Shown here: positions 7,361 to 41,088 of the stretch, one piece after another
Numbering within the stretch: the first letter of the stretch is position 1
Layout of the letters: every line of letters starts with the position of its first letter
DNA from: Methylocystis rosea SV97
GTDB lineage: Bacteria; Pseudomonadota; Alphaproteobacteria; Rhizobiales; Beijerinckiaceae
Reading direction: 5' to 3'
NCBI RefSeq assembly: GCF_000372845.1
Contig: NZ_KB889963.1
Span: 310,001-374,000, forward strand
Length of the DNA: 64,000 bases
Notes under the pieces: generated by a model
Databases searched by the model: none
Seen by the model: the letters and a program-made list of their open reading frames with translations, nothing else
Told to the model about the DNA's origin: nothing
Translations under genes and position numbers: made by a program

Positions 7361-7471
7361 TGTCATTCCCGGCAGGCCCACGGCCTGACCGGGAATCCAG
7401 AAGTGTGAGTGAGCGCTGGCCTTGCTCTGGATTCCCGATCGCTTCGCTCACGCAAAGCGTCGGGAAAGACC
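7361..7471. repeat. intergenic palindromic repeat (GTCATTCCCGG...GGGAATCCAG family)
   Basis: The ~110 bp between convergent genes contain a left part GTCATTCCCGGCAGGCC facing GGCCTGACCGGGAATCCAG, then TCTGGATTCCCGATCGC and further short inverted repeats. The layout matches dispersed palindromic elements common in alphaproteobacterial intergenic DNA. It could also act as a bidirectional transcription end. Confidence 0.65.
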
Positions 7472-7494
7472 CCAGCCTAAATTGAAATCGCGCC

Positions 7495-8960: not shown

Positions 8961-8978
8961 GCGATCGTATCGACGCTC

Positions 8979-25439: not shown

Positions 25440-27305
25440 TCACTGAGGGCGATCTTTCTCGCTCCACCAGTTCTCCAAAGTGAAGCCGTAAGGGAACATC
25501 GGAAAAAGCGGCGTATGCGCAGGATGGCGAATCGCCGCGCTATGCGCGCACCAGATGGCGTTCACGTGCTGCAGAGGCACGAAATAGAATCCGGAGAGCA
25601 GGATGCGATCAAGCGCCCGCGCCGCCGAAATGCTGTCCGCCTTCGTCCGGGACGCGAGCAGAGTGTCGATCGCCGCGTCGAGCGCGGGCGAGGCCGCCCC
25701 TGCGAGATTGAGCGAATCTTCCCGGTCGAGGCTCGCGGCGCTCCACCGGTGCATCTGTTCCTGACCGGGAACGGCGTACGCCAGCCATTGCCCGATCATC
25801 ATGTCATATTCGAAGCGCTGACGCCGGCGCTGGTATTGGACTTCGTCGTAGACGCGCGGATTGGCTTCGATCCCGATGCGCTTCAGCGCGGCGGCGAAAT
25901 TGAGCGCAAGCCGCTCTTCGTCGCGGTCGCGGATCATGATCTCGAAGACGACGGGAACGCCGTTCTTCTCTAGACGCGCCTCGACGACGCCAAAGCCGGC
26001 TTCGGCGAGAAGCGCTTGCGCGCGCTTCGCGACCGTGCGATCGCGGCCCGAACCATCATGCTGAACAGGTCGCCAGCGGCCTTCAAGAACATCGTCGCGA
26101 ACGGCGCCGGGATACTTCGAAAGCAAAGCGCGCTCGGCCGCGCTTGCGGGACGCCCGACCGAAGAATAATCCGATTCGCCGAAGTAGCTTTCCGTGCGGA
26201 CGTATAGTCCGCTGTAGAAATTGGCGTTGATCCATTCGAAGTCATACATCATGGCGATCGCTTCGCGCAGCCGCACGTCGCGGAAAATGCCCTTGCGCAG
26301 ATTGAAGACGAAGCCTTCCATTCCCGTCGGGCGGCCGGGCCGCAGGGTTTCTTTCACAATGACGCCATTGCGAACGGCAGGGAAATCATAGCCCGTCGAC
26401 CAACGGGCGGCGCTCGTCTCCTCGCGATAGTCGAGGAGGCCCGCCTTCAGCGCCTCAAACAGCGCCGCGCCGTCGCGATAATAATCGACGTCGATCTCGT
26501 CGAAATTATAGAAACCCCGCTGGCTCGGTATGTCGCGGGCCCAGTAGTCGGGATCACGCCGCAGAACCAGACGCGCGCCGGCTTTCGCTTCCGAGATCAC
26601 ATAAGGGCCTGAGCCGAGAGGAATCGTCATATCGAGATCATCGAAGCGCTCAACTTTCGTGGTTCTCTTCGACAGAACCGGCATCGCGGCGAGAATGAGC
26701 GGCGCTTCGCGATCCTGCACGCCAGTCAGATCGAAACGCACGGTATGGTCGTCGAGCGCCACGGCGGACTTCACCAACGCAAAAATCGCACGATGGTTCG
26801 GTCGACCTTTCGACTTGAGTAATTCAAAGGAAAATAGAACGTCCGACGCGAGGATGGGCGTCGTGTCGGAAAAGCGCGCCCGAGGATCGATGTGAAATGT
26901 GACGCGTTGGCGCGCTTCGTCGAGTTCGACGGATTCGGCGATCAGCGGATAGAAGGAATAGGGTTCGTCCTGCGAACGCACCATTAGACTTTGCAGCACA
27001 TTGCCGATGATGAGTTGCGGCGCGTCTCCAAATCTCGCGTTGAATGGATTGAGACTCGCAAATCCGCCGCGCTGGCCGAGCCGAAGCCTCCCGCCTTTCG
27101 GCGCCTCGGGATTGGCATAGGGAAGATGATCGAAATCCTTGCGCAGCGCCGGGTCGCCATAAAGCGCAAGGCCATGCGTGGCGAAAGCTTGCAGAGGATT
27201 ATCGGCAAGCGACGGAATCGGCGGCAGGACCGCGATGACATGGATCAACGCCGCGAGCCTCGCGGCGCCGATCATGCGTCCGACTGCGTGGCCAGCGCGA
27301 AGCAT
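25440..27305 (-). CDS. mbnE: family 5 periplasmic peptide-binding protein, MbnE-like
   Basis: From the ATG at 27305 (GGAGG ribosome binding site six bases upstream) a 621-residue solute-binding protein with signal peptide ending in PSLADN. The family 5 (oligopeptide/YejA-type) signature is visible: DFDHLPYANPEAPKGGRLRLG near residue 50 and GMEGFVFNLRKGIFRDVRLREAIAMMYDFEW near 310. In methanotrophs MbnE proteins of this family bind copper-methanobactin in the periplasm after TonB-dependent uptake. This gene lies 147 bp after the TonB-receptor gene in the same orientation, beside the mbn cluster, which is why MbnE is proposed. By sequence alone a YejA-like peptide-binding protein is the alternative. 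No ABC permease genes are adjacent. Confidence 0.8.
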   Translation of the reverse strand: MLRAGHAVGRMIGAARLAALIHVIAVLPPIPSLADNPLQAFATHGLALYGDPALRKDFDHLPYANPEAPKGGRLRLGQRGGFASLNPFNARFGDAPQLIIGNVLQSLMVRSQDEPYSFYPLIAESVELDEARQRVTFHIDPRARFSDTTPILASDVLFSFELLKSKGRPNHRAIFALVKSAVALDDHTVRFDLTGVQDREAPLILAAMPVLSKRTTKVERFDDLDMTIPLGSGPYVISEAKAGARLVLRRDPDYWARDIPSQRGFYNFDEIDVDYYRDGAALFEALKAGLLDYREETSAARWSTGYDFPAVRNGVIVKETLRPGRPTGMEGFVFNLRKGIFRDVRLREAIAMMYDFEWINANFYSGLYVRTESYFGESDYSSVGRPASAAERALLSKYPGAVRDDVLEGRWRPVQHDGSGRDRTVAKRAQALLAEAGFGVVEARLEKNGVPVVFEIMIRDRDEERLALNFAAALKRIGIEANPRVYDEVQYQRRRQRFEYDMMIGQWLAYAVPGQEQMHRWSAASLDREDSLNLAGAASPALDAAIDTLLASRTKADSISAARALDRILLSGFYFVPLQHVNAIWCAHSAAIRHPAHTPLFPMFPYGFTLENWWSEKDRPQ

Positions 27306-27452
27306 TGATCGCCTCCTTCGCCAGATCGGCGGATCTGAAACTATTCGGCCCGGGCAATGTCCCATTCGAAAAAATTGCTGATCGCGCTTCGCCGATGGCG
27401 CGCGCCTGGCGGGCGGCGTCGCCCCAAATGAACGGGGCGACGCCTGATCACC

Positions 27453-29867
27453 TCAGAACTTGAGTTTGATGCCTCCGGCGAAGGCGCGCGGCTGGCCGGC
27501 GAGGATGCCGGCGCCTTGCGCCGTCACCAGGCCGCCTGTCGGCCAGACCAGCGGCGTTTGTATCGGGCCGGCAAGGAGCGTGTTGGCCACCACGAATGCG
27601 CCGGCGACATAGGTTCGATTGAAGACGTTCGAGACCTCGAAAAAGAGCTCGATATTCTTGACATAGAAGTTGTCTATGTCGTGGTTATAGTGCGCGTTAA
27701 GATTGATCAGACTGTAGCTCGGCAGAGTGGTGAAATTGGCGTTGTCGATCGTATAATTGCTTTTGAAAACATATTCCGCGTAAGCGCCGAGACCCGAAAG
27801 GTCGCCGTAGGGCTGATCATACCCAAGACGCATCGTCACAGTATGCGGCGCCACGTTGGGAATTCGGTTGCCGGCGCGATTATATAAGACGGCTCGCCCC
27901 GCGACGGTCCCGAGATCGTCCCAGTAATTGGTGAAGAACTGATTGTTGAACGTATAGGCCGCGATCAGCCGCCATCCGTCGAAGGGCCGCCAATCGGCGT
28001 TGAGTTCGACGCCGCGGTGAAGAGAGGAAGGAATATTTTGCGAATAGCTGACGAGCGCGTTGTTCAATGTCAGAATTTCATTGCGATGCCATTCGTTGAA
28101 ACCGGTCACGCTGAAATTGAGCTCAGGGCTCGGGGTCCAATCAATGCCGAGATCGACGCCCATATTGGTCTGAGCCTTCAAAGGATTTTGTCCGATTCCG
28201 TTTCGCGTGCTGGTGAGGAACACGAATGTCGGGGTGCTGTAGCCCGTCGCATAGCGCGCCCGCACCTGCCACTCGGGGTTATAGCGATAGGTGAGCGACG
28301 CTTCCGGCGCCGTGTTCCAATAATCATTGTCAACGGCGACCTGGGTCGGAAATCTGGGCGCCAGATTGGCGGGATAGTTATAGGCGGTGCTGACGCCCCA
28401 AACGCGATTCCAATTGGCGCTGAACCCGATGACGCCAGTCAGGCCCGGCGCGAGCGCAATCTCTTCACGCGCGCGCAGACCGATGTTTGACGTATAGTAA
28501 TCCAGCTTGCCGACCTGCGCGCCGATTGCGCCGCTGTACCAGGTATTGGCGATCTGATTAAAGAGCGGATTGGTGGTTTTGGCGTTGCTATAGAAGAACT
28601 GCAGAAAATGCGTCGCCGGGAAGCCAAACAGATCGGTGTGGCTGGTCACGTCGGTCTGTGCGGTGATGCCCACCGTTGGGCCCCTTAGGGCGACCGGGCC
28701 GCCTTGGCCGCCCGGTCCGACGATCGGCGGCGGCCAGGTTCCACTGATGTTATCGAGATAGTCGTACGTAAATTGCGATCGCCAAGTGGTGGCGTTGTCG
28801 AAGTCATGCTCGAACTGAACGCCGGCGATCTGTCTGAGAGAGTTTTGATGAGTGCCAAGCTGCCAAACGCTTTGGCGAGTAAGCGCCCCGGATATGCCAT
28901 TCGCCGGCACATTCAGATTGTTGCACAAGTTGAGATTCAGAGGGACTGCGATGGAGCAGCCATAGTTTTGTTGAAATGGATTGAGATTGAAGACATTGAT
29001 ATTTTCTCGGTTGATGAACTCCGATCTCAAATTGTTGGCGATATATTTCACGATCACACGATCGGTAGGGGTCACGTCCCATCTGCCGAGGAGCTTGGCT
29101 TGTTTGCCTGAGAAAGAATTGCGGGCATAGCCGCTGCTGTTGGCGTCGGAGGCGAAAAACGACAGATCGAAAGCGCCGAGCGTGCTGTCGACCACCGCCT
29201 TTCCGACCCGAACGTAATTGTTGACATAGCCGAAGCTGCCAAATTCCGAACCTGTGTGCACGCCGTCGATTTCGGCGCCGGAAAAGGTGCGGAAATTGAG
29301 CGCGCCGCCATAGGCGTAATTGCCGAAGAGCGCCGACGAAGGTCCGCGATAGACGTCGATGGCGGTATAAGAGTGCGGATCGAGCAGGTCGGTGCGGCCA
29401 TTGCCGTCGGCTGTCGTGATTGGGAACCCGTCTTCGTACAGCATGATGTTGCGGATGCCGGTCGGGAACCCGGGGCCGAGACGGTTTCCGGAGCCGCGAA
29501 TCGAAATCAACAGATCGCGCGGATTGTTGCCTTGCTGTACGGAGACGCCGGGGCTGTATTCCAACACCCTACGGACATCCGCCAGGGGTGTCGGCTTGAG
29601 GAATTTCGTGTTGACGATCGTCACCGTCTGCCCCGGCGGGTCCCGGTAGATCGGCAGTTTCGCGCGAACGGGATTAAAGCCGGGCGCGATTCCCGCTTCG
29701 CCCGCCGTCGACTCTCTCACAGCCGGAGTCGCGACCGGCGGTGGCCGCCGTGCGGCGCCGATCGTGATCTGCGGAAGCGCCTGCTGCGCGTGCGCGACGG
29801 AGGCAGAGGAGAAAAGCGCGAGGGCGCTGAGCGCGACTCCGTGCATCAATTTCGACCGGGAGCTCAT
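27453..29867 (-). CDS. mbnT: TonB-dependent outer-membrane receptor, candidate methanobactin receptor (MbnT-like)
   Basis: 804 residues from the ATG at 29867, signal peptide MHGVALSALALFSSASVAHAQ. The plug domain (PLADVRRVLEYSPGVSVQQGNNPRDLLISIRGSG and the VYRGPSSALFGNYAYGGALNF segment) is followed by a ~600-residue beta-barrel ending in the typical aromatic KLKF. There is no N-terminal signalling (STN) domain of the kind that talks to anti-sigma factors. It lies 28 bp after mbnH. Given mbnP, mbnH and the MbnE-like gene on the same strand, uptake of copper-loaded methanobactin is likely. Another copper or siderophore ligand is possible. Confidence 0.85.
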   Translation of the reverse strand: MSSRSKLMHGVALSALALFSSASVAHAQQALPQITIGAARRPPPVATPAVRESTAGEAGIAPGFNPVRAKLPIYRDPPGQTVTIVNTKFLKPTPLADVRRVLEYSPGVSVQQGNNPRDLLISIRGSGNRLGPGFPTGIRNIMLYEDGFPITTADGNGRTDLLDPHSYTAIDVYRGPSSALFGNYAYGGALNFRTFSGAEIDGVHTGSEFGSFGYVNNYVRVGKAVVDSTLGAFDLSFFASDANSSGYARNSFSGKQAKLLGRWDVTPTDRVIVKYIANNLRSEFINRENINVFNLNPFQQNYGCSIAVPLNLNLCNNLNVPANGISGALTRQSVWQLGTHQNSLRQIAGVQFEHDFDNATTWRSQFTYDYLDNISGTWPPPIVGPGGQGGPVALRGPTVGITAQTDVTSHTDLFGFPATHFLQFFYSNAKTTNPLFNQIANTWYSGAIGAQVGKLDYYTSNIGLRAREEIALAPGLTGVIGFSANWNRVWGVSTAYNYPANLAPRFPTQVAVDNDYWNTAPEASLTYRYNPEWQVRARYATGYSTPTFVFLTSTRNGIGQNPLKAQTNMGVDLGIDWTPSPELNFSVTGFNEWHRNEILTLNNALVSYSQNIPSSLHRGVELNADWRPFDGWRLIAAYTFNNQFFTNYWDDLGTVAGRAVLYNRAGNRIPNVAPHTVTMRLGYDQPYGDLSGLGAYAEYVFKSNYTIDNANFTTLPSYSLINLNAHYNHDIDNFYVKNIELFFEVSNVFNRTYVAGAFVVANTLLAGPIQTPLVWPTGGLVTAQGAGILAGQPRAFAGGIKLKF

Positions 29868-29895
29868 TTTCTTTGCTTTCCTGATGGGGTGAAAC

Positions 29896-31074
29896 TCAAT
29901 GGGAGGACGCACGCGATGGCCCGCTTGCCGTCGACGCCGGTTTCCAGGGGTCGGCGAAACGTGGAGATGTCAGCAACGACTCGTCGGTCAGCGTTTTCAG
30001 AAAGGCGATCAGATCGCTCTTTTCCTGAGGCGACAGATCGATGGGAACGATCAACGCGCTTTTGTTTGCGTTGTAGCGACCGTCGCCCTTGAGTGGACCG
30101 CTCGTGACATTGCGTCCGCCGGCCGCGTAAATGTCGATCACGTCATCGAGCGTCGCGACGCTGCCGTCATGCATGTAAGGCGCGGTGACAGCGATATTGC
30201 GCAGGCTTGGCGCGCGAAACGCGCCCATCTCGGCGGGATTATGCGTGTTCTCGAAAACGCCGCGATTGGGCTCGGGATAGGCGCCCTTTCCGTCGAGATC
30301 ATAGAGGCCGGTGTTGTGAAACGGCGTCTCGATCTCGCGCGTTTTGGCGTGATAGAACTGATCGTCGAAATTCACGCTGCCGTGGCAGTGATGGCACTCG
30401 GCCTTCTCGCCAAAGAAGAGATCCTTGCCGCGCGTCTCTTCTGGAGAGAGCGTCGCTTTGCCTTCAAGATAGAGATCATATTTCGAGGACGCCGAGACGA
30501 CGCCGCGCTCGAAGGCCGAGATCGCCTTGATGACGTTGCCGAAGCTGATCGAGTCCGCCTCGCCGGGAAAGGCGGCCGCGAAGTCGCGGCGATACTCTGC
30601 GTCACTGTCGAAACGCGCGAGGATCTCTTTGCGGTTCTTGTCATTGACGCCCATCTCGATCGGCTCTTCGCCAAAGAGCGGGCCTTCCATCTGCCTTTCC
30701 AGGGTCACCATCGCCGGATTCGCCCAGGTGAGCGTGGCGCGCCAGGCGGCGTTGGCGATGCTGGGCGAATTGCGCGGCGTATGCTGGCCTGTCGCTCCGA
30801 CGGCGACCGGGCGGCCATCGGTAAACGCCAGATGTTGCTCATGGCAGGAGGCGCAGCTCTCCTTGCCGTTTCCGGACAGACGCGGGTCGTAGAAGAGTTT
30901 GCGCCCAAGCTGAAAGCGCGCCTCCGACATTGCGTTGTCGGCGGGAACCCGTGGCGGCGGCATGAAGTCGGGCAAAGTCCAGCGCCAGGACTCCGCGCTC
31001 GGGATGGGGTCGCCTTGCGCCCCGCCTGCGATCAGACTCGCAGCGAAGAGGAGAATGAGAGCTTCGCGCTTCAT
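29896..31074 (-). CDS. mbnH: di-haem enzyme MbnH (MauG/cytochrome c peroxidase family)
   Basis: A 392-residue periplasmic di-haem protein: signal peptide LILLFAASLIAGGAQG, first haem site CASCHEQHLAF near residue 72-76, second CHHCHGSVNF near 223-227, and MHDGSVATLDDVIDIY toward the C-terminus. MbnH family members use a high-valent di-haem state to oxidise a tryptophan of the partner MbnP to kynurenine, creating a copper-binding site. The start overlaps the mbnP stop by 4 bp. The adjacent MbnP gene separates it from ordinary bacterial cytochrome c peroxidases. Confidence 0.9.
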   Translation of the reverse strand: MKREALILLFAASLIAGGAQGDPIPSAESWRWTLPDFMPPPRVPADNAMSEARFQLGRKLFYDPRLSGNGKESCASCHEQHLAFTDGRPVAVGATGQHTPRNSPSIANAAWRATLTWANPAMVTLERQMEGPLFGEEPIEMGVNDKNRKEILARFDSDAEYRRDFAAAFPGEADSISFGNVIKAISAFERGVVSASSKYDLYLEGKATLSPEETRGKDLFFGEKAECHHCHGSVNFDDQFYHAKTREIETPFHNTGLYDLDGKGAYPEPNRGVFENTHNPAEMGAFRAPSLRNIAVTAPYMHDGSVATLDDVIDIYAAGGRNVTSGPLKGDGRYNANKSALIVPIDLSPQEKSDLIAFLKTLTDESLLTSPRFADPWKPASTASGPSRASSH

Positions 31075-32138
31075 TTCGTGACCTCCGCGCGGAAAATCTT
31101 CGTCGACGCGCCGGAGGACTGGCCGGCGTCATTGGCGTCGGGTGCGGTTTCCTTGAGCCGAAGCCCGAGATTTTCGAACATCGGCGTGCATTCCGGATCG
31201 GCCGGACCGCTCATGCAGCCGGTCGAAAACCCCTGGTCTTTGCCAAGATCGATGCCGGCGAACAGCGGCTTCAAATCGAGCACGACGCGCTGCCGCGCGG
31301 GATCGAAGGACGCGAGTTTCACGGGAACGCGATTTGGATTGGCGCAGGAGGTGATTTCGCCTTTCGTCGCGTCGCCGCGACAGCCCGTCGAACCGAGGTG
31401 CAGCATCCAGGTCGAGACGGTGATCGTCCCATCCGAGTTGACGCGCAGCGGCGCCGTCTTCGGCGCGTCCGCCATCGGCGGCGGGCCGTCAGTCTTGTCG
31501 CCGGCGGGCGCGCCGGGGCCATTGGCGGCTAGGGCGGGGTTTTTCGCTGGGGGCGGCGGTCGGGTCACGCCGCCATCGGGATCAACTTCGATTTTTATGA
31601 ATTTGCGGCCGGCCTGCCAGTTCCACGTCATCGACTGAAGATCGAGCGGCGCGGGAGCGGTGGCGAAATTCGAGTGGTTGAGAATAACGTCCTTGCCGTC
31701 CTTGTCCTGAATGACGCTCGGGACGCCGATGACGAAGCTGAACCCTTTGTATCGGCCGCGCGGCGCCGATCCCTTGATCGTGTCGTTGATGTCGGCGCTG
31801 CCGACGCATTTGCCGGTCTTGTTTTCGAAATCGAGCAGAGCGAGGTTGGCGTATTGCCAGTCGTTCTGTTCCAGTTCGATGGGGACTTCGTGGCCGGCGG
31901 CGTCGATCAGCGCCGGCGCGGCGATGTAGAACCTGGCGTCGTGGAGCTGCGCCGGCTGCCCGCCGGTTCCGAGCCCGGCGATGTCGCGGCCGCATTCGAC
32001 CGGCTGATCGCCCGCCGCAAGCGCAAAGCGTATCGCGATCTGCTGCCTGTCGCCGCCATCGACCTTACCCGCCGCCTGCGCGCCGCCAACGGCTGCGACA
32101 CCGGCGATAACGGCCGTAAAACGAGTGAATGCGCGCAT
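31071..32138 (-). CDS. mbnP: MbnP-family copper-associated periplasmic protein
   Basis: A 355-residue exported protein (signal peptide TAVIAGVAAVGGAQA). Family hallmarks are the start of the mature domain (IAIRFALAAGDQPVECGRDI), QLHDARFYIAAPALID, YKGFSFVIGVPSV, the STWMLHLGSTGCRG segment and the C-terminal GFSTGCMSGPADPECTPMF. MbnP is the MbnH substrate and binds copper after Trp oxidation. This copy has a Pro/Ala-rich insert of about 50 residues in the middle (around 180-230, containing PPPPAKNPALAANGPG), likely a surface loop. GGAGAGGA precedes the ATG. The 160 bp upstream separate it from the DUF2946-like gene. Confidence 0.9.
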   Translation of the reverse strand: MRAFTRFTAVIAGVAAVGGAQAAGKVDGGDRQQIAIRFALAAGDQPVECGRDIAGLGTGGQPAQLHDARFYIAAPALIDAAGHEVPIELEQNDWQYANLALLDFENKTGKCVGSADINDTIKGSAPRGRYKGFSFVIGVPSVIQDKDGKDVILNHSNFATAPAPLDLQSMTWNWQAGRKFIKIEVDPDGGVTRPPPPAKNPALAANGPGAPAGDKTDGPPPMADAPKTAPLRVNSDGTITVSTWMLHLGSTGCRGDATKGEITSCANPNRVPVKLASFDPARQRVVLDLKPLFAGIDLGKDQGFSTGCMSGPADPECTPMFENLGLRLKETAPDANDAGQSSGASTKIFRAEVTK

Positions 32139-32298
32139 GATTCCTCTCCTGTCAGCACGATTTTTGAGATGTTTGTTGGCTGCACGCGTTCGCGACGCGT
32201 GTCGGCGGCGGCGCGTCAGAGGCGCGCGCGGAAATCCAACGCGAGGGAAATGGCGATGAGGGGTCGAAGACCCGGCAGCCGACCGCTAACGCGCTCTC

Positions 32299-32712
32299 TT
32301 AGGAGAGAAGCGACGGGGGTGCGCGAGAGAGCCTGTTTCTGGGCCACTGGGTGGTCGGCGGCGCGAGATCGCGCTCTTCCGGCCAAAGAGGACGAGCCTC
32401 AGACAAGGGCGCCAGCACGAGGACGACGGCGGACAGGAGAACCTTTGCTCCGAGGTCGTCGCTTCGGTCGCTTAGAAAGCAAGCCATGCAATGCATGTGC
32501 TGAACATGCGGGGCCTTGCCGTCGCCATTGGCTTGATCGGCGCAAAGCTCGTTCGCCATCGCTAAGGGAGAGCTTAGGAACGCGCCGAAATCGCCGCCAA
32601 GGCGTCCGTGAGAAACAATAAGACCCAAAGTTTGCTGAAACAGCAGACAAGCGACAGCGGCCGCCACAATCGGACGCATGAACCGCAGTAGTTTTCGCTT
32701 GTCTTGCCGCAT
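32299..32712 (-). CDS. DUF2946-like small exported protein with Cys/His motif
   Basis: About 137 residues from the ATG at 32712. An N-terminal hydrophobic segment (IVAAAVACLLFQQTLGLIV) is followed by KAPHVQHMHCMACFLS, a His/Met/Cys motif plausible for copper binding, and a second hydrophobic stretch (AKVLLSAVVLVLAPL). The layout resembles DUF2946 proteins, which often accompany TonB receptors and metal genes. It is the first gene of the leftward mbnP-mbnH-mbnT-mbnE arm. Family assignment rests on pattern only. Confidence 0.65.
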   Translation of the reverse strand: MRQDKRKLLRFMRPIVAAAVACLLFQQTLGLIVSHGRLGGDFGAFLSSPLAMANELCADQANGDGKAPHVQHMHCMACFLSDRSDDLGAKVLLSAVVLVLAPLSEARPLWPEERDLAPPTTQWPRNRLSRAPPSLLS

Positions 32713-33111
32713 GGCGAATTCTGAGTGCACGAGGATTAACTTGTCAACGACGGTAAGCGCCAAAATTTTGCAATAATTTAAACTGTTGCGCTGTAGCCAC
32801 ACTTAGTCTTTGCAATTTCGCTTTGTCTTTCAATTGACGGGCGCGAAGAAGCCGTTCGCCCCGACATCAATCCAAATGGCGCGCGCGACGGCGGGCGGAG
32901 CGCGCAGAGTCTTTAGCCCGCAATGAGGATCCAGTGTCGGCTTGAAAAACAGTGAATCAGGCTCGCCGACCCTTGCGTTTGTCAACGCGTCTTCGCCTCA
33001 CGGACCCTCGTCGTTCCGCCATGCGCGTGCCGTATAACGAGTTTTCGTATTGCCGCAAGATTGTTTCGCGCCTATGATCCGCGCACCGTAGGCAATGGTT
33101 GGCGGCAATCC
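32713..33111. promoter_or_regulatory. divergent regulatory region between the two methanobactin arms
   Basis: About 400 bp between the starts of two divergent DUF2946-like genes, markedly AT-richer at 32740-32840. It must contain promoters for both arms. A perfect palindrome CAAAATTTTG lies at 32761-32770, 50-60 bp upstream of the leftward gene. A sigma-70-like promoter faces right at 33050-33078. No gene seen here. Confidence 0.55.
33050..33078 (+). promoter_or_regulatory. putative sigma-70-type promoter for the rightward arm
   Basis: TTGCCG and TATGAT are separated by exactly 17 bp. The -10 box ends 33 bp before the ATG of the DUF2946-like gene at 33112. Predicted from sequence match only. 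Confidence 0.4.
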
Positions 33112-33447
33112 ATGCTCGTTCGGGTCATTCTTTTCGTTGCGATCTTGCTGCAAGTCGCTGGCGTTTCGTCTGTCGCCGCGCGCGCTCAATCTCATTCTTT
33201 GGCGTTCCGGGCCGTCGTCTGCAAAAGCGATGCGATTCCCGCGGCGCCTCACGCGCCGGGCGAACACGGCGGCTCTTGCGTTGACTGTATCGCGTGCTGC
33301 GACGCTCAGCCGCAGATCTTATGCGTCTATGATCAGGTTGCGCGCCTGTCCTTTCCAACGGCGCGACTCAGCGTTCTCGCTCTTCCCATCCATCCCGTTT
33401 CCCGAACGCGATCGGCGACCCCGCCGGCGCGCGCCTCCCCCGTCTAA
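33112..33447 (+). CDS. second DUF2946-like small exported protein, Cys-rich
   Basis: 111 residues from the ATG at 33112. An N-terminal hydrophobic segment (MLVRVILFVAILLQVAGVSSVAA) is followed by a mature part with a dense cysteine cluster (HGGSCVDCIACCDAQPQILC) and His residues. It has the same overall design as the divergent gene at 32299-32712: a hydrophobic N-terminus plus a CxxC metal-type motif. It precedes the sigma-factor gene by 138 bp. A periplasmic copper-binding or sensing role is plausible but inferred. Upstream in-frame start at 33061. Confidence 0.6.
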   Translation: MLVRVILFVAILLQVAGVSSVAARAQSHSLAFRAVVCKSDAIPAAPHAPGEHGGSCVDCIACCDAQPQILCVYDQVARLSFPTARLSVLALPIHPVSRTRSATPPARASPV

Positions 33448-33585
33448 AGACACGGCCGTACATCCGCGCGTTCGAAAGCAATGACGTTTGCGGATCGAAA
33501 CCACGCATCGCCGGTGCCCCTGGGGCCGCTCGGCGTGATGCGTTTTGGATAATCGGCGCGCTTGGAGACAAGCGGGGAGGCGCTG

Positions 33586-34419
33586 ATGCAGAAGCACCAT
33601 GAGACGATCGACCGACTATTTAGAAGCCATCATCGCGATCTGATAACGCGGGCGCGCCGCGTGATCGGCTCGGGAGACGCCGAAGACCTGGTCCAGGAAG
33701 CCTATCTAAAAATGCTGGAGAGCGACCGCGGCGAGCTGATTTCGAATGCGCGCGGTTATGTGTCGAAGATGACGTGCACGCTCGCGATCGACAATCTTCG
33801 AAGGCAAAAAACGCATGCCAGAGCGCTGGCCGAAGACGGCGCATGGTTCCAGTCGCCCGCCACGGACACGCGTATCACGTCGGCCCTCGACGCATTCGGC
33901 CTGGCGTCTGACGTTCAAGCGGCCTTGATGCAATTGCCGCGATGTTGTCGTCAGATATTCTTGATGAGCCGAATCCTGGGCTTCAGCCATTCCGAGATCG
34001 CGCAGGAAATCGGCGTTTCCTTGAGAACGGTCCACCGCAGCCTGGGTCGAGCGCTCGAGCATTTCGATCGCGCCTTCGAGGTCGCGCCTTCGAGCGTTGA
34101 GATTGAGGCGCAACGCACCAGGGGAAAGAACGCTCCGCGCGAGTTCTCGGTCGAAGCGCCCGCGCCGCGCCTTCGAAACGCGCCAAACATCAAAATCTCG
34201 ACGGCTCGAAAAAATTCTCGTCCCAAGCTGTCCGATTTTTGCGGCCTCGCTCGTCATACCATTCGGGTCCCGCGTTCTGCGGAGCCCGTCTGGTCTCTCC
34301 AGACGAAATCAAAACAGGAGGCCTTCATGACCATCCGTATCGCCAAGCGCATCACCCTCAATGTCATTGGCCGCGCCAGCGCCCGCTGCGCGTCGACCTG
34401 CGCCGCCACCAACGGCTAA
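33586..34419 (+). CDS. ECF-type sigma factor (MbnI/FecI-like) whose frame runs on through mbnA
   Basis: The ATG at 33586 follows a GGGGAGG ribosome binding site. The first ~170 residues are an ECF sigma factor: region 2 (IDRLFRSHHRDLITRARRVIG, DAEDLVQEAYLKML, YVSKMTCTLAIDNLRRQK) and region 4 (QLPRCCRQIFLMSRILGFSHSEIAQEIGVSL, with RTVHRSLGRAL). FecI-like sigma factors (MbnI) control methanobactin genes in other methanotrophs. ECF factors normally end near residue 170-180, but here no stop occurs for another ~77 codons, and the frame enters mbnA in register, ending at the mbnA stop. The extension is polar and unstructured-looking. Whether a 277-residue fusion is made or the frame is open by chance or stop loss cannot be decided. 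No FecR-like anti-sigma gene is adjacent. Confidence 0.8.
   Translation: MQKHHETIDRLFRSHHRDLITRARRVIGSGDAEDLVQEAYLKMLESDRGELISNARGYVSKMTCTLAIDNLRRQKTHARALAEDGAWFQSPATDTRITSALDAFGLASDVQAALMQLPRCCRQIFLMSRILGFSHSEIAQEIGVSLRTVHRSLGRALEHFDRAFEVAPSSVEIEAQRTRGKNAPREFSVEAPAPRLRNAPNIKISTARKNSRPKLSDFCGLARHTIRVPRSAEPVWSLQTKSKQEAFMTIRIAKRITLNVIGRASARCASTCAATNG
34287..34305 (+). promoter_or_regulatory. hairpin just upstream of the mbnA ribosome binding site
   Basis: A perfect 7-bp stem CGTCTGG/CCAGACG with loop TCTCT, ending 10 bp before the AGGAGG at 34316-34321. It may stabilise the mbnA mRNA 5' end or affect ribosome access. Confidence 0.5.
34327..34419 (+). CDS. mbnA: methanobactin precursor peptide MbnA
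   Basis: A 30-residue precursor preceded by a consensus AGGAGG five bases before the ATG. The leader (residues 1-19, MTIRIAKRITLNVIGRASA) is the typical lysine/arginine-containing MbnA leader. The core is RCASTCAATNG, with two Cys each preceded by the residue whose backbone joins the heterocycle (Arg20-Cys21 and Thr24-Cys25). In Methylocystis methanobactins such cores become an N-terminal pyrazinedione-type ring plus an oxazolone, each with a neighbouring thioamide, together binding Cu(I), and Thr is sulfated. mbnB and mbnC follow. It is too short for routine gene finders and lies in frame with the sigma-factor gene. Confidence 0.96.
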   Translation: MTIRIAKRITLNVIGRASARCASTCAATNG

Positions 34420-34429
34420 GGACGGTTTG

Positions 34430-34463
34430 TTTGCGCCGTTGGCCCCCCGGCCAGCGGCGCAAA
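34430..34463 (+). promoter_or_regulatory. strong hairpin between mbnA and mbnB
   Basis: A 15-bp stem, TTTGCGCCGTTGGCC facing GGCCAGCGGCGCAAA with one G-T pair and a CCCC loop, begins 11 bp after the mbnA stop. No T-run follows (TAACG), so partial termination or 3'-end protection of a short mbnA transcript is more likely than full termination. That would allow excess precursor over the biosynthetic enzymes. Confidence 0.8.
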
Positions 34464-34499
34464 TAACGTTCGGCGCGTCAAGACGAAGGCGACAAAGAG

Positions 34500-35327
34500 A
34501 TGCGACTTGGCTTCAATTTCACGCTCGGCGACACCTATGACATGGCTCAGAGGCTGATCGGCGAAGGGCACATCGATTATTGCGAATTTCTTATCGACAA
34601 TTTTTTCTGCGTCGATCCAGACGAATTAGCCAAGGCGTTCGATTGTCCAGTCGGGTTGCACATTATGTATTCGAAGTTTCTCGAAGCCGATCGGCCGACG
34701 CTCGTCGATTTCGCCGCTCGGCTTCGAGATTACATCGACGCGCTGAACCCGATTTACGTCTCCGACCATATTCTGCGCTTTTCTCACGAGGGGCGCGCCT
34801 TCTTTCACTTAGGCGAAATCGATTATTCCGCCGAATATGAATCCGTGCGCGACAAGGTCGTGCAATGGCAGGAGATGGTCGGACAGCGCATTCATTTCGA
34901 GAATTACCCGTCCATCATGGACGGCGGGTTGGAAGCGCCCGCTTTCTTCGAGCGCCTCATGAAGGAAACAGGCGCGGGCGTGCTGTTCGACGCCTCCAAC
35001 GCCGTCTGCGCCAATCGCAATTGCGGGACGCCGTTCGAGGCCTGGCGCAACGTGATCGCGAAAGCCCAGCATTTCCACGTCGCCGGCTATAGGCAGTCCT
35101 TGATCGAGCCCTTCATTTCGCTCGACACCCATGCCGAGGCGCTGGCGCCGGACACGCTGGCCTTCCTCCAGAATTTTCGATCGGTCTTCGACAAGTCGGG
35201 CGCGACGATGACCTATGAGCGCGACGATCAGATCGAGTTCGACGATATCGTCGTCGATCTGAAGGCGTTGCGCGATCTGTTCGGCCAACCAGAAGAAACG
35301 CGTCATGACCTTGCTCTCACTGCCTAG
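34500..35327 (+). CDS. mbnB: methanobactin biosynthesis iron oxidase MbnB (DUF692)
   Basis: A 275-residue TIM-barrel protein of the DUF692 family. Metal-ligand segments are visible: VGLHIMYS near residue 52, YVSDHILRFS near 90, RIHFENYPSIMD near 132, GVLFDASNAV near 162, and HFHVAGYRQ near 195. With MbnC it uses iron and O2 to convert precursor cysteines into oxazolone-thioamide pairs. ATG at 34500, 80 bp after mbnA, across the intervening hairpin. mbnC overlaps its 3' end by 23 bp, indicating tight coupling of the two subunits. Confidence 0.96.
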   Translation: MRLGFNFTLGDTYDMAQRLIGEGHIDYCEFLIDNFFCVDPDELAKAFDCPVGLHIMYSKFLEADRPTLVDFAARLRDYIDALNPIYVSDHILRFSHEGRAFFHLGEIDYSAEYESVRDKVVQWQEMVGQRIHFENYPSIMDGGLEAPAFFERLMKETGAGVLFDASNAVCANRNCGTPFEAWRNVIAKAQHFHVAGYRQSLIEPFISLDTHAEALAPDTLAFLQNFRSVFDKSGATMTYERDDQIEFDDIVVDLKALRDLFGQPEETRHDLALTA

Positions 35328-35886
35328 TCGGACTGATCGCGACCTCTACCCTGCGCTGATGTCGCCGCAGCTGAACGCAAAATATCCTGCGGACCACAAG
35401 GCGTTCGTGCGGATCGACGTGAGCCTGCGCATCTATTGGCACACCCTCTTCGACATCTGCCCAGAACTGCTGGAGCTTTCCGGTCCGGACGGCATGTCGA
35501 TTTTCCGGCCTTTCATGGCCTGGGCTGAAGAAAAGAAGCTCGCCTTCGACTGGTCCTATTATCTTTGGGTCTATGTTTGGCTGCGCCAATCGCCGTTCAA
35601 GGAACGGCTGTTGGCGGACGACAAATATCTCCGGTCGATCATGGCGGCCTCCGCCGCGCGGTGGGCGATCCTCGATCGCGGTCGAAGCCGCGGGATCGTG
35701 ATCGGATGCGCTGATACGACGGATCTCGTCATCGGCTGGAAATGCCGCAACGTTCGCCTCGGACGAGAGATCGAGCTTATCGAACCCGAGGAGCCGTTGC
35801 CGGCGCCGCCAGACCTCTTCGGCTACTTTACGCTGCCGAGCTTTGAACTCGACATATTTCCGGGGTGGCAGAGCCTCGCGCGATGA
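35305..35886 (+). CDS. mbnC: MbnC, partner of MbnB
   Basis: A 193-residue protein that forms the heterodimer with MbnB and helps bind the MbnA leader. Recognisable segments are LMSPQLNAKYPADHKAFVRIDVSLRIYWHTLFDICP near residue 20 and FDWSYYLWVYVWLRQSPF near 90. The length fits other MbnC proteins. It starts inside mbnB and its TGA overlaps the mbnM ATG, so the B-C-M genes are translationally coupled. Confidence 0.94.
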   Translation: MTLLSLPSRTDRDLYPALMSPQLNAKYPADHKAFVRIDVSLRIYWHTLFDICPELLELSGPDGMSIFRPFMAWAEEKKLAFDWSYYLWVYVWLRQSPFKERLLADDKYLRSIMAASAARWAILDRGRSRGIVIGCADTTDLVIGWKCRNVRLGREIELIEPEEPLPAPPDLFGYFTLPSFELDIFPGWQSLAR

Positions 35887-37184
35887 CAAGCGCGCCGCTG
35901 TGGCGCGGATACTGGTTCCTGTTCGCCAGCACGTCCGCAGCCGCCTTCATCATGCAGATCGATCTCGCCATGGTTGCGCGATTGGGCGGCCGCGCGTCGG
36001 GCGCCTACGCGATTCTGATGCGCATCACGCTGCTCGATGTCGCGGTCACCATCGCTTCCGCGGCCGTCGCCGCCGTCGCGCTCGGCCATGCGCAAAAGAA
36101 GGGCGAGACGGCCGACGCGATCGAAAAGACCTGCGCGCTTTCCCTCGCGCTTGGCGTCGCGACAGCGATTTTCGGCTTCGTCGCCTATCCGATCTTCCTT
36201 GACGCCCTGATGGGCGACGCCGCCGCCGCTCCCTATATCGGCGCCCCGATCCTTTGGCTCGTCGCCGGCGCGCCCTTCCGCGTTCTATCGAACACGCAAG
36301 GATTCCTATTGCACGCCCTCGGACGCGGCGGCTCGGTTCTCACATGGAAGCTCGCGGAAATTCCAGCGAAAGCCGGCGCCAACGTCCTCTTCATGCAGAC
36401 CCTCGGATTGGGTTTTACCGGCTGTTTTCTCGCGGGCTGCGTCGTCGCCGCCGCCTCGTCCTTTTGGTTATGGAGTCGGCTGCACGCGCATGGCGCGCGC
36501 AAATTGCGCCTTCCCGAACTCGCCTTTGCGCGCTCCTTTCTGAGCGGAACCTTCTGGGAAGCGTTGCGGGTGCTGTCGCCGCAGGCGGCGATGCTCTTCT
36601 CGCTGACGCTCTTTTCGCTCCCCTGGCATTACGCCGCGAACGGCCAACGCCTCGACTCCTACGCGGCCGCGCAAACCTTCATGCTGTTCGTTCTTGGTCC
36701 ACTCATTACGCTGATGCGCTATCTCGCCATTTACCTTCCCAAGCAATCTCCCGAGGATTGGACGCCAGCGCTTGCACCGGTGATGCGCGTCGGCGCGCCA
36801 ATCGCGCTGACGGCCGCCGTCTTGCTGCTATTGGGGCGCGATTGGATCGGGGACGCTCTCTACCGCCAACACGGACCCTGGTGGTCCGTTTTCGTCGCCT
36901 GCTTGGCGCTTTCCATACCCATCCGATTCATCGGAAGCATCGTCCGAGGACTAACGCTCGCTCGGAGCGCCTTCGCAGAGCTGACCTCCGTCGATGTGCT
37001 TGCGCAGTGGCTCATCGCGCCGCTGTTCATTCTGTTCGGTCTCTCCGTCAACCGTCCCGAGATCGCCTATCAATCGCTGATCTGGCCTGAAATCGTCGCT
37101 GTTTTCTTGCTCTGGCGCGGACTTCGATCAGCTCCCGAAGAGCCTCTTGGCGTCTCGTGGCCCTCCAAAGGACATGTGCAATGA
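35883..37184 (+). CDS. mbnM: MATE-family efflux transporter MbnM
   Basis: 433 residues from the ATG at 35883, which overlaps the mbnC stop (ATGA). A GTG at 35865 is an alternative. Roughly twelve hydrophobic helices in two related halves, starting with YWFLFASTSAAAFIMQIDLAMVARLGG, mark a MATE/MVF-type exporter. Methanobactin operons carry this gene for export of mature apo-methanobactin across the inner membrane. Its stop overlaps the mbnF start, again by ATGA. Confidence 0.92.
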   Translation: MTSAPLWRGYWFLFASTSAAAFIMQIDLAMVARLGGRASGAYAILMRITLLDVAVTIASAAVAAVALGHAQKKGETADAIEKTCALSLALGVATAIFGFVAYPIFLDALMGDAAAAPYIGAPILWLVAGAPFRVLSNTQGFLLHALGRGGSVLTWKLAEIPAKAGANVLFMQTLGLGFTGCFLAGCVVAAASSFWLWSRLHAHGARKLRLPELAFARSFLSGTFWEALRVLSPQAAMLFSLTLFSLPWHYAANGQRLDSYAAAQTFMLFVLGPLITLMRYLAIYLPKQSPEDWTPALAPVMRVGAPIALTAAVLLLLGRDWIGDALYRQHGPWWSVFVACLALSIPIRFIGSIVRGLTLARSAFAELTSVDVLAQWLIAPLFILFGLSVNRPEIAYQSLIWPEIVAVFLLWRGLRSAPEEPLGVSWPSKGHVQ

Positions 37185-38827
37185 GCGTGGAGCGAGTCCC
37201 GGTTCTGATCGTCGGCGCCGGCTATGCCGGTCTGTCTGCGGCGACGCTGCTTGCATGGCGCGGCGTCCCCTGCCGTCTCGTCGAGCGACGCGCGTCAACG
37301 TCGCGACTGCCGAAAGCGCATGGGATCAACCGCCGCAGCATGGAAGTTCTGCGCGTCGTCCCCGGCTTGGAGGATGCGCTGTTCGCGGCAAGTCGCGCCG
37401 GCGCCAATGAGTCCACGCTCATCATCGCGGAGTCGGTCACGAGCCCGCCGATCGAAACGCTCGTCACTAAGATCTCGCTCGACGCAACGCCCGTGTCTCC
37501 CAGCAGAATATGCACCGCCGGCCAGGATCGCGTCGAACCCGTGCTGCTGCGCTTCGCCCGCGAGAACGGCGCCGATATCAGATTTTCGACGACGCTAGAG
37601 CGCTTCTCGCAGCGGGACGACGGCGTCGAAGCGATCCTGTGCGATGAAGCGTCGGGACAAGAGACGACGGTTTTTGCCGACTACCTGATCGCCGCCGACG
37701 GCGCCGGCGGTACGATCCGCGATATGGGCGGCGTCAGAATGGAAGGCCCCGGCGTTCTCGCCGATACGATTTCTGTGCTGTTCGAGGCCGATCTCGACGC
37801 GATCCTGCCAGGCAGGGGATTTGCGCTCTATTATCTTCGCAATCCGGCGTTCAGCGGCGCCTTCGTCACCTGCGACGAGCCCAATCACGGCCAGATCAAC
37901 ATCGAATATGATTCCACGCGCGATCAGGCGTCCGATTTCGATGAAGAACGATGCGAAGAGCTCGTTCGCCAATCGCTTGGCGTCGCCGATCTTGCAGTAA
38001 AGATTCTCGACATTCGACCCTGGCAGATGGCCGCTCTCCTCGCCGATCGCATGTCTTTTGGCCGCGTATTCCTTGCGGGCGACTGCGCGCACATCACGCC
38101 GCCCGTCGGCGGGCTCGGCGGACAGACCGCGATCCAGGACGCCGCCGACCTGGCGTGGAAACTTGCGCTCGTCGTTAAGGGCGAGGCTGCGCCCACGCTG
38201 CTCGACAGCTATGCGATCGAGCGCAAGCCCGTGGCGCGGATCGCGATCGCGCGGTCGATCGCCAATTACGTCGAGCGCCTCCTGCCCGATCGTCAGGACA
38301 TCCGCATTCGGAAAGACGAATACGGCCTTCTCGAAACATCTATGGGTTATCGCTACCGCTCCGACGCAATCGTCGCTGATGAGTTCGACGACGGCGCATG
38401 CGTCGAAGATCCGCTTCGCCCGAGCGGCGCGCCGGGAACGCGTCTGGCGCATGTCTGGTTGCGGCGCGGCGAGGAGACGATCTCCTCTCACGATCTGATC
38501 GGACGCGATTTCATGCTTTTTACCGGCCCCGATGGCGGCGACTGGATCGAGGCGGCGCGGCGCATCGCCCTGCGCTCGAAAGCGCCGCTTGGCGTCTGCC
38601 GCCTCGGCTTCGACGTCGATGATCCCGAAGGGCTGTTTCTGCCGCGCCTGCGCATTTCGCCTGAAGGCGCGCTTCTCGTGCGTCCCGACGGCTACATCGC
38701 CTGGCGCTCGCGCGGCCGAAGTCCCGATCCGCTCGCAACGCTCGAAGCGAGTTTTGCACGCGTGCGCGGTTTCGACACGCGCCAATCCAGCGGCAGTCAC
38801 GCGGCTGCGTTCGCCGACGCAAGCTAG
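37181..38827 (+). CDS. mbnF: FAD-dependent monooxygenase MbnF
   Basis: A 548-residue flavoprotein of the p-hydroxybenzoate-hydroxylase type. The N-terminal dinucleotide motif is VLIVGAGYAGLSAATLL (residues 8-24). The second FAD motif VFLAGDCAHITPPVGGLGGQ lies near 300 and is followed by DAADLAWKLALV. MbnF is found in Methylocystis-type clusters and is thought to convert the first oxazolone to a pyrazinedione-type ring. The start overlaps mbnM by 4 bp. An upstream in-frame start at 37157 would overlap mbnM more. Confidence 0.93.
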   Translation: MSVERVPVLIVGAGYAGLSAATLLAWRGVPCRLVERRASTSRLPKAHGINRRSMEVLRVVPGLEDALFAASRAGANESTLIIAESVTSPPIETLVTKISLDATPVSPSRICTAGQDRVEPVLLRFARENGADIRFSTTLERFSQRDDGVEAILCDEASGQETTVFADYLIAADGAGGTIRDMGGVRMEGPGVLADTISVLFEADLDAILPGRGFALYYLRNPAFSGAFVTCDEPNHGQINIEYDSTRDQASDFDEERCEELVRQSLGVADLAVKILDIRPWQMAALLADRMSFGRVFLAGDCAHITPPVGGLGGQTAIQDAADLAWKLALVVKGEAAPTLLDSYAIERKPVARIAIARSIANYVERLLPDRQDIRIRKDEYGLLETSMGYRYRSDAIVADEFDDGACVEDPLRPSGAPGTRLAHVWLRRGEETISSHDLIGRDFMLFTGPDGGDWIEAARRIALRSKAPLGVCRLGFDVDDPEGLFLPRLRISPEGALLVRPDGYIAWRSRGRSPDPLATLEASFARVRGFDTRQSSGSHAAAFADAS

Positions 38828-38880
38828 GCGCACCGCCTCATCCTGCATCAAGAAAAGTCTTCGCAAAGGAGAGTGGTCGA

Positions 38881-39891
38881 ATGTCCATGCTTTCGCCGGA
38901 ACTCCACGCGCCTTTCCGGTCAGAACCGATCCTGGCGGTTGATCCGAAGCGGCTCGAAACGATCCAGGCCCCCTACCAAGACTTCAACCGCCTCTCGCGG
39001 GCCAGCGGGATTTTGGATGCCCTGCCCCTTCGGGCCAAGCGTCAATTCCGCTCCTATTATTTTTTCAATCCGCCAAAATGGCGGGTCTGGGCGCGTTCGC
39101 TCGGCTCCGGCGAACGCATGGCGCCGTCCTTCGCATCGATCGGCGCGGTGCGCTCCGGGACGTCTTTCCTCTCCTCCTATATTTTCCAGCATCCGCACGT
39201 CGTGCTGCCGCTGTCGAAGGAAATCTCCTTCACGGAGACGATGCGCGAACTCATGGCGCATTTCCCGACCCTCGCGGCGCAAAGGGCGGCGGAGCGGCGC
39301 AACGGCGGCGCGATCACCGGCTACTGCACGCCGGTGATGCCCAATCCACTTTGGATATTTCTGGCGCAGTCGATGTTTCCAGACATGCGGATCATCTGCG
39401 TTCTGCGCGATCCGGTTGAACGGACGTTTTCGCATTGGCGGTGGGATCAGAAGCGGTTCATCAGCCGCAAGTCGCAGGACCCGCATTGGAAGGGCTTTCC
39501 GGACCTTCAAACCTTGATCGAAGCTGAAAAGGCGATGATACGCGGCGGCGGCATGGAGCCGCACGCGTTTTCCGGCGCGCGCGCCGGCTATCTGCGCCAC
39601 AGCATCTACGCGCCCTTTCTGCGCCTGCTGTTCGAGAAATTCGGCAGAGACCGCGTTTTCATCGTCGATGCGGCGGAATTTTTTCGCGACCCGCGATCGA
39701 CCGCGAAGGAGATTTACGCGTTTCTCGGCCTTCCCAACGTCGAGCCGCTGGTGATCGAGGAGCAAAATCCGGGTCCCCCCGGAACGCTCGAGGACGGACT
39801 TCGGGAGAATTTGGCCGAGTTCTTCCGGCCCTACAATGAAGAGCTCTATGCTTTGCTGGGCAGGGATTTCGGCTGGGGCGCCGGCCGCTAA
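38881..39891 (+). CDS. mbnS: sulfotransferase MbnS
   Basis: A 336-residue PAPS-dependent sulfotransferase. The phosphosulfate-binding loop IGAVRSGTSFLSSYIFQHP lies near residues 87-105, and the 3'-phosphate site in IICVLRDPVERTFSHW near 170. The C-terminal FIVDAAEFFRDPRSTAKEIYAFLGL is typical. In Methylocystis methanobactins a threonine of the core is O-sulfated, and this enzyme is the candidate. Ribosome binding site AAAGGAGAG. It closes the mbn operon, 53 bp after mbnF. Confidence 0.92.
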   Translation: MSMLSPELHAPFRSEPILAVDPKRLETIQAPYQDFNRLSRASGILDALPLRAKRQFRSYYFFNPPKWRVWARSLGSGERMAPSFASIGAVRSGTSFLSSYIFQHPHVVLPLSKEISFTETMRELMAHFPTLAAQRAAERRNGGAITGYCTPVMPNPLWIFLAQSMFPDMRIICVLRDPVERTFSHWRWDQKRFISRKSQDPHWKGFPDLQTLIEAEKAMIRGGGMEPHAFSGARAGYLRHSIYAPFLRLLFEKFGRDRVFIVDAAEFFRDPRSTAKEIYAFLGLPNVEPLVIEEQNPGPPGTLEDGLRENLAEFFRPYNEELYALLGRDFGWGAGR

Positions 39892-40035
39892 GAGGCGACA
39901 TTCCGCTGCAGACCTCTCCTTGCTCCTGGCCCGGCCTCGGCGTCCCGGCCCTCGGCGACCCGACGGGTGGGCTTCACGCGACCGCGTTCCGGCAATATAT
40001 GGAGGACGCCGAATTTCCGCCGGTTCGAGGTAAGG

Positions 40036-41088
40036 ATGAACGCCCACGCCAGAGGGCCTGCAATTGCGACGCCCGCGGCCGCCGCGCCGGCGCCGCTTGT
40101 CGACCCATACGGCCGGACGATCTCCTATCTGCGCGTCTCCGTCACCGATCGATGCGATTTCCGCTGCGTCTATTGCATGTCGGAACATATGCAATTCCTG
40201 CCGCGGCGCGACCTGCTGACGCTCGAGGAGCTCGACAGGCTGTGCTCCGCCTTTGTCGCGCGCGGAACCAAGAGGCTGCGCATCACCGGCGGCGAGCCGC
40301 TGGTGCGTCACGACGTGATGAAGCTGTTTCGCGCTCTGTCGCGCCACCTTGTCTCGGGCGCGCTGGAGGAGCTGACGCTCACCACCAACGGCTCGCAGCT
40401 TGCGCGCTTCGCGGCCGAACTCGCCGATTGCGGCGTCCGGCGCGTCAATGTCTCTCTCGACACGCTCGACCCCGATCGTTTCAAGGCGCTGACCCGCACC
40501 GGCGCGCATGCGCAGGTTCTGGCGGGCATCGCCGCCGCCCGCGCCGCCGGCCTCAAGGTGAAGCTCAACGCGGTGGCGCTGAAAGGCGTCAACGAGGACG
40601 AGGTCACACAGCTCGTGCGCTTCGCCCACGACAGCGGGATGGACATGACCTTCATCGAAGTGATGCCGCTCGGCGAGCTCGATGGGCCGGAACGCGCCGA
40701 TCAATATCTGCCGATGCAGGAGGTGCGCGATCGATTGAGCGAATCCTTCACGCTCGACGAGATCGACTATCGCACCGGCGGCCCCGCGCGTTACATGCGT
40801 GCGCGCGAAACCGGCGGGCGCATCGGCTTCATCACGCCGCTCACCCATAATTTCTGCGAGAGCTGCAATCGCGTGCGCGTCACCTGCACCGGGACGCTTT
40901 ATATGTGCCTCGGCCAGGAGGACGCGGCGGACCTTCGCGCGCCGCTGCGCGAAAGCGCCGACGACGCGCTGCTGCATCAGGCGATCGAGGCTGCGATCCT
41001 GCGCAAGCCCAAGGGCCACGACTTCATCATCGACCGAACCGCGCCGGCGCCCGCCGTCTCCCGCCACATGAGCATGACAGGCGGCTGA
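40036..41088 (+). CDS. moaA: GTP 3',8-cyclase MoaA
   Basis: A radical-SAM enzyme performing the first step of molybdenum cofactor synthesis. From the ATG at 40036 (GGTAAGG upstream) it has 350 residues. The N-terminal cluster motif CDFRCVYC is at Cys40, Cys44 and Cys47. The C-terminal cluster is in [20 protein letters not shown], and the essential terminal Gly-Gly is present (SMTGG). The cofactor is needed by SorA in this window. The stop codon is immediately followed by the next gene's start region. Confidence 0.97.

Follow-up and report, generated by a model that had tools for sequence, protein, structure and literature searches.

Why the gene of a ribosomal-peptide precursor should be kept as the tail of a transcription-factor gene is the question raised by positions 25440-39891 of a 64,000-nucleotide stretch of Methylocystis rosea SV97 (contig NZ_KB889963.1, positions 310,001 to 374,000 of the forward strand; hereafter, the window). 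This segment is a group-II (Methylocystis SB2-type) methanobactin locus, a kind that is already known, and its gene content supports two arms of the SB2-type system, one for synthesis and export and the other for uptake. The gene mbnA, encoding the methanobactin precursor MbnA, forms the final 30 codons of a 277-codon open reading frame (ORF) that opens as an extracytoplasmic function (ECF) sigma factor. The initial annotation of this DNA overlooked the sigma ORF running in frame into mbnA, as well as the DUF2946-like gene that starts each arm. A sigma-MbnA merger had been raised in 2013 (PMC3621798; the papers cited here are used for those parts of their text that were available), and retention of the frame now argues for a real fusion. 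The comparative evidence says that this fusion is real, that it is maintained by selection and that it holds a promoter-like element of its own. Within an otherwise normal methanotroph gene set, related strains have retained the precursor gene joined in frame to the end of a gene for a transcription factor.

Occurrence and Frame of the Sigma-MbnA Fusion

The match of the window ORF to NF040705 (sigma_mbnA) is full-length, with residues 7-277 aligned to positions 1-272 of the model, and both sigma regions 2 and 4 (PF04542 and PF08281) are present. We fetched 21 sister regions, which with the window gave 22 loci. The sigma gene was directly upstream of mbnA in 17 of these and in frame with it in 16 of the 17; as to the remaining five, the region of L073 was incomplete, and L074, L077, L079 and L082 had no sigma gene at that place. 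With the records L086 and L088 added, 18 of 19 mbnA genes that have an upstream sigma gene were in frame with it. Judged by length, an open frame of at least 280 codons was found for 18 of the 23 mbnA genes of the genus, a set mostly the same as the 18 loci read directly, the L088 protein being that of G038 and L086 possibly corresponding to G033 (not read). The shorter open frames comprised 131 codons in G024, 62 in G001, 76 and 39 in G008, and 38 in G022, while the eight mbnA open frames of the sister genus g42 ranged from 33 to 172 codons. A sequencing or annotation accident was considered as the origin of the fusion and is ruled out by the 18 of 19 loci in frame and by the lengths of the open frames.

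A divergent lineage of the fusion was found in L065 and L068, in which the sigma part is 43-45% identical over its aligned portion and the linker is different. The fusion of L065, about 41% identical, is located on a plasmid (NZ_AP027143.1, 39071-39838, and also NZ_CP143315.1). Plasmids of Methylocystis iwaonis carry this lineage, and the gene is annotated there as a methanobactin-precursor-domain sigma factor. Outside the genus no match to NF040705 exceeded the cut-off, the only positive among 99 genomes of the family being that of the window itself. In the available parts of the open-licence papers, no account of the fusion was found beyond PMC3621798.

Selection on the Linker and the Domains

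The ratio of nonsynonymous to synonymous substitution rates (dN/dS) was computed from 14 loci (L086 and L088 not included), and both the linker gap count and a neutral simulation from 16, with L076, L065 and L068 left out of all three analyses. In the nucleotide alignment, all 7 gap runs of the linker were multiples of three. In the flanking spacers this held for only 1 of 9 gap runs between mbnA and mbnB (14 loci) and for 5 of 17 upstream of the sigma gene (11 loci), together 6 of 26 (Fisher p = 4e-4, gap runs not being fully independent events). In 3000 simulations of neutral change with the rate set to that observed, no linker among the 16 acquired a stop in 0.33% of the runs when only the variable part was considered, and in none of the runs when the entire linker was. 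The dN/dS values were 0.16 for the sigma domain, 0.11 for the MbnA leader (MTIRIAKRITLNVIGRASA) and 0.68 for the MbnA core. As read from the sequences, these comparisons show that the sigma factor, which is of the FecI type, a flexible linker and MbnA make up a single ORF, and that the clade has preserved both its openness and its frame. In the predicted model the sigma domain was helical at moderate confidence and the tail disordered, which fits a tether and shows no contact.

A Promoter-like Element within the Sigma Gene

The 3' end of the linker (its last ~40 codons) is shown by our comparisons to be conserved also at the DNA level, over a putative ECF-like promoter and a ribosome-binding site. 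The synonymous rate (dS) was 0.20 at the end of the linker versus 0.47 in the sigma domain, and change was similar at all codon positions. The sequence TGTCCGA-N16-CGTCAT has what we take to be the layout of an ECF promoter. In the divergent lineage (L065 and L068), GTCCGATTT and CGTC recur at equal spacing in another codon phase, and the block is therefore a DNA element. Conservation of the linker end purely at the protein level was also considered and is ruled out by the low dS and by this altered phase. Searching 13 genomes for the exact 13-letter motif gave 9 copies, of which 8 were located at mbnA. A scan of the window at up to 2 mismatches gave 28 matches versus 29 expected by chance, the sole exact one being that at mbnA. 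Both the ribosome-binding site and the possible hairpins lie 3' of the ECF-like site. A strong stem between mbnA and mbnB was found also in the sister loci that were folded, and the stem-loop at 34420-34471 may determine how much mbnA transcript is present relative to mbnB transcript. In L076, where a frameshift in the sigma gene might reflect either a genuine loss or a sequencing error, the promoter-like block and mbnA are retained and the MbnA core is altered.

Regulation of the Two Arms

The two arms differ in their promoter-like sites, with sigma-70-like sites before each DUF2946-like gene and an ECF-like site before mbnA only. Two sigma-70-like sites were found in 32100-34520, where 0.7 were expected, and no ECF-like motif was detected for the left arm in 28216-34228 at up to 2 mismatches. 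A Pfam scan of the window MbnT revealed Plug and barrel only and no signaling (STN) domain; in a receptor relative of g42 (L189), STN scored 27.0 bits, under the cut-off of 28.4. An anti-sigma gene adjoining the sigma gene was sought and not found, the only PF04773 (FecR) match of the genome being far away and not anti-sigma-like by eye (other anti-sigma families were not searched). That FecR-domain protein adjoins an apparent adenylate-cyclase gene, also judged by eye. Given an MbnT without STN and no FecR-type anti-sigma found, a FecIRA-type circuit seems to be unavailable to this locus. In strain SB2, mbnT was not induced by its own methanobactin (PMC9601215), and the available part of PMC3621798 does not mention DUF2946.

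Proposed Mechanism and Alternative Explanations

The reading that we favor, and consider reasonably probable from the sequence features described, is that of a nested gene in an SB2-type methanobactin locus, with two products, a sigma-MbnA fusion and, from an internal promoter, free MbnA. The upstream transcript would give a scarce fusion, and the internal promoter and start an abundant free MbnA. At copper scarcity, the internal mbnA promoter would be driven by the sigma factor, which has no FecR partner. Free MbnA would then be modified by MbnB/MbnC, finished by MbnF and MbnS and exported by MbnM. MbnT would re-import Cu-methanobactin, which the in-locus binding protein and MbnP/MbnH would handle in the periplasm. 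Feedback through the MbnA tail of the sigma factor is plausible, since the MbnA leader is bound by MbnC, which recruits the enzyme (PMC8888699), and these proteins could therefore bind a leader carried by the sigma factor at its end as well. A bolder version, which we hold to be doubtful, is that the MbnA at the C-terminus of the sigma factor replaces an anti-sigma factor and acts as an integral sensor. The tail would be bound and perhaps modified by MbnB/MbnC, and the supply of free precursor or the bound copper would be read out and so set the nested mbnA promoter. If this were true, a transcription factor would have as its regulatory domain the very ribosomal-peptide precursor that it controls.

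It must be noted that several observations weigh against the nested-gene reading. The fusion is known from sequence alone, from which we infer both a function of the tail and the recognition of the nested mbnA promoter by the sigma factor. The linker evolves fast (dN/dS of 0.72 in the variable part and 0.60 at the end). Residues 166-277 were predicted below 50 in the local distance difference test score (pLDDT), and no structured sensor is therefore seen in the tail. In L076 (G024; Methylocystis sp. H62), sigma region 4 is frameshifted and mbnA is kept. With one mismatch allowed, the promoter motif had 73 matches in the 13 genomes versus 17 for a reversed-pattern control (matches not followed individually). 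The highest counts were those of G004 and G011 (12 each), both without mbnA, and thus the extra matches do not track this sigma factor. In G001, a one-mismatch site precedes an mbnA that is unfused, with no sigma gene evident by eye adjoining it, a sigma-like gene (31% identical) lying about 17 kb from mbnA. The leader hairpin, finally, is not significant alone. When 20 leaders of 80 nucleotides were folded, 17 had it or an equivalent in their lowest-energy structure, and it was missing in L067, L069 and L076 and from the lowest-energy fold of the 74-nucleotide window stretch (z -1.84), for which reason it is given little weight.

Two other explanations of the continuous frame were weighed. 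The continuity may be incidental if the end of the sigma gene simply houses the mbnA promoter and leader, with stops avoided against transcription polarity or rare in GC-rich DNA. The fast evolution and disorder of the linker agree with this, as does the fact that, of 14 linkers, 7 and 8 have no stop in the one and the other shifted frame (and 7 and 6 do have stops there). However, the gap runs of the linker keep to multiples of three as those alongside do not, the neutral simulation rarely leaves all linkers stop-free, and the plasmid-borne divergent lineage is fused as well through a different linker. Moreover, avoiding polarity does not require the frame of mbnA itself, and we consider this explanation rather unlikely. 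Still less credible, in our opinion, is that the fusion is a route of production, MbnA being translated only as the sigma tail and then released by a protease. The frame kept in 18 of 19 loci and an ORF ending in an intact leader and core would be expected of such a route, but mbnA retains its own ribosome-binding site, ATG and promoter-like DNA conservation, and the frameshifted L076 retains mbnA. A secreted chalkophore would also presumably demand sigma factor in stoichiometric amounts.

Organization of the Locus

The annotation of the locus is provided in Table 1. The mbn locus is unremarkable for its type in the genus Methylocystis, in which MbnB was above the cut-off in 21 of 39 genomes. 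The genome, of 3.9 Mb in 2 contigs, has a single mbnA match. In a thin, evenly drawn sample of the order and phylum, with few members of the genus, MbnB was found at E 1e-60 in 1 of 398 genomes and MbnC at E 1e-40 in 1 of 397, in both cases that of the window.

Table 1. Features of the methanobactin locus of Methylocystis rosea SV97 (positions in the window).
Feature	Position	Strand	Evidence
MbnE-like SBP_bac_5 periplasmic binding protein	25440..27365	-	Pfam 210 bits; 5icq 800 bits; tree: sister clade of characterised MbnE
Probable MbnT, TonB-dependent receptor	27453..29912	-	Plug and barrel only, without N-terminal STN domain; 79-99% identity in 9 sister regions
mbnH, di-haem enzyme	29896..31074	-	TIGR04039 480 bits (cut-off 363); PDB 6e1c 576 bits
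mbnP, copper-binding partner of MbnH	31071..32138	-	TIGR04052 266 bits (cut-off 140); PDB 7l6g 262 bits
DUF2946-like small Cys-containing protein, first of left arm	32299..32802, likely start 32712	-	PF11162 24.3 bits (cut-off 23.7); conserved in sister loci
Sigma-70-like promoter TTGACA-18-CAGAAT, left arm	32718..32747	-	Inside conserved block
Sigma-70-like promoter TTGCCG-17-TATGAT, right arm	33050..33078	+	Inside conserved block
Second DUF2946-like small Cys-rich protein, first of right arm	33061..33447, likely start 33112	+	PF11162 17.1 bits, below cut-off 23.7; conserved ORF
ORF: ECF sigma factor (1-165), disordered linker (166-247), MbnA (248-277)	33586..34419	+	NF040705 493 bits (cut-off 350)
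Candidate ECF-type mbnA promoter TGTCCGA-N16-CGTCAT, within sigma ORF	34229..34257	+	DNA-level conservation
Possible hairpin GTCTGG-5-CCAGAC, presumed mbnA leader RNA	34288..34304	+	Fold predictions
mbnA ribosome-binding site AGGAGG	34316..34321	+	Sequence; similar site in compared loci, weaker in L065, L076
mbnA, methanobactin precursor	34327..34419	+	TIGR04071 55 bits (cut-off 24); core RCASTCAATNG 34384-34416
Strong stem-loop, mbnA-mbnB spacer	34420..34471	+	-42 kcal/mol, z -4.13
mbnB	34500..35327	+	TIGR04159 455 bits (cut-off 325); PDB 7fc0
mbnC	35305..35886	+	TIGR04160 297 bits (cut-off 185); PDB 7tcr
mbnM, MATE exporter	35883..37184	+	NF045578 523 bits (cut-off 285)
mbnF, FAD monooxygenase	37181..38827	+	NF045577 906 bits (cut-off 800); PDB 8fhj
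mbnS, sulfotransferase	38881..39891	+	PF13469 46.5 bits; PDB 3rnl 50 bits; no NCBIfam match

The initial annotation had described a rightward mbnA-B-C-M-F-S series and a leftward series of mbnP, mbnH, a TonB receptor and an MbnE-like binding protein, and the family profiles recovered this order and these coordinates (mbnS by the Pfam sulfotransferase profile only, the binding protein as SBP_bac_5). Every claimed gene for which a model exists passed the curated threshold of its family, including MbnA, whose core was present as described. The ATGA overlaps of mbnC/mbnM (35883), mbnM/mbnF (37181) and mbnP/mbnH were likewise found from the ORF coordinates and the sequence, and the family matches place synthesis/export and uptake arms in one stretch. 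To call the locus complete was too strong, since no ABC permease, ExbB/ExbD/TonB or leader peptidase was identified among the neighbors scanned, the profile scans covering the proteins around the locus and not every ORF of the window.

Directly after mbnS there is a moaA-like gene (39967-41088), which is present in 14 of the 17 loci carrying the sigma gene; we know of no connection of such a gene to methanobactin. In L080 the order is rearranged, with mbnM after mbnS rather than between mbnC and mbnF.

Uptake Genes

That the TonB receptor is probably MbnT, as proposed in the initial annotation, is supported by its close relatives in 9 of the 21 sister regions and by the absence of a signaling domain, as described for SB2 (PMC9601215). 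Among the other 12 regions, six end at a contig end and six long ones are without an MbnT relative. The best relatives in the sister genus g42 had 57-62% identity per genome.

The proposal that the binding protein is MbnE held in one respect and failed in another: the in-locus protein is homologous to MbnE of M. parvus (5icq), its best solved relative (800 bits versus 305 for YejA), but in a maximum-likelihood tree it falls outside the clade of 5icq. A stand-alone paralogue in the same genome and outside the window (C1:451270-453117) scored 1098 bits to 5icq. It adjoins a Band-7 gene, no MbnT-like match was found in its 16 kb (L187; G000:C1:444000-460000, with the paralogue at about 7217-9121), and a relative of it is present in G011, a genome without mbnA. 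The tree, which excludes L071 (stop near the start of the matched stretch), places 5icq with the stand-alone proteins of this genome (G000), G007 and G011 (97/97) and that of G114 (86/87). The window protein belongs to a fork of 8 rows without 5icq (98/96), formed by in-locus proteins and by those beside MbnT-like receptors in G008 and G011; the G001 protein, on a long branch, is also placed here, though less well supported (85/87). The assignment as MbnE is thus only partly supported: the in-locus protein belongs to a sister clade of characterised MbnE, linked to MbnT-like receptors, and the name MbnE may cover two clades. A role as a general oligopeptide carrier unrelated to methanobactin would agree with the position outside the characterised clade and with the lack of an identified ABC permease among the neighbors scanned, but it appears unlikely given that the clade is tied to MbnT-like receptors in mbn loci, in G008 and in G011, and less surely in G001.

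G011 has neither mbnA nor MbnB above the cut-off. Since it carries a receptor and a binding protein, uptake without synthesis seems to occur, and mbnT without synthesis has likewise been described in Methylocystis sp. Rockwell (PMC12997803). In G011 (L188; G011:C6:674000-690000), the MbnT-like receptor and the MbnE-like protein are located near a heavy-metal-domain methyltransferase and a two-component system.

Comparison with Known Systems

The 28 MbnA residues printed for the SB2 cluster (PMC10167746) are identical in the window MbnA, and a count by eye gave 18 differences in 548 residues between the window MbnF and PDB 8fhj, which indicates that the window strain is a close relative of SB2. 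As in the window, mbnT of SB2 is placed with mbnP and mbnH and has no signaling domain (PMC9601215). The SB2 papers list mbnA as a separate gene, and in their available parts neither the fusion nor the DUF2946-like genes are mentioned (PMC9601215; PMC10167746). MbnE of M. parvus OBBP (5icq) is a homologous SBP_bac_5 protein, yet it groups with stand-alone paralogues.

The FecI/FecR/FecA system and MbnI/MbnR/MbnT of Methylosinus likewise combine an ECF sigma factor of similar type with a TonB receptor in one locus (PMC3621798; PMC9601215). The window differs from both in that no FecR anti-sigma was found in the genome, its MbnT is without STN and its sigma factor is tailed by the precursor. The NF040705 family, named "methanobactin precursor domain-containing sigma factor," describes the same fusion as the window ORF. 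Kenney and Rosenzweig (2013; PMC3621798) remarked on the merged sigma-MbnA in strains SC2 and SV97 from their annotation, leaving cleavage and sigma activity open. To what is contained in the available part of that paper, the present analysis adds the conservation of the frame, the internal promoter-like element and the divergent plasmid lineage.

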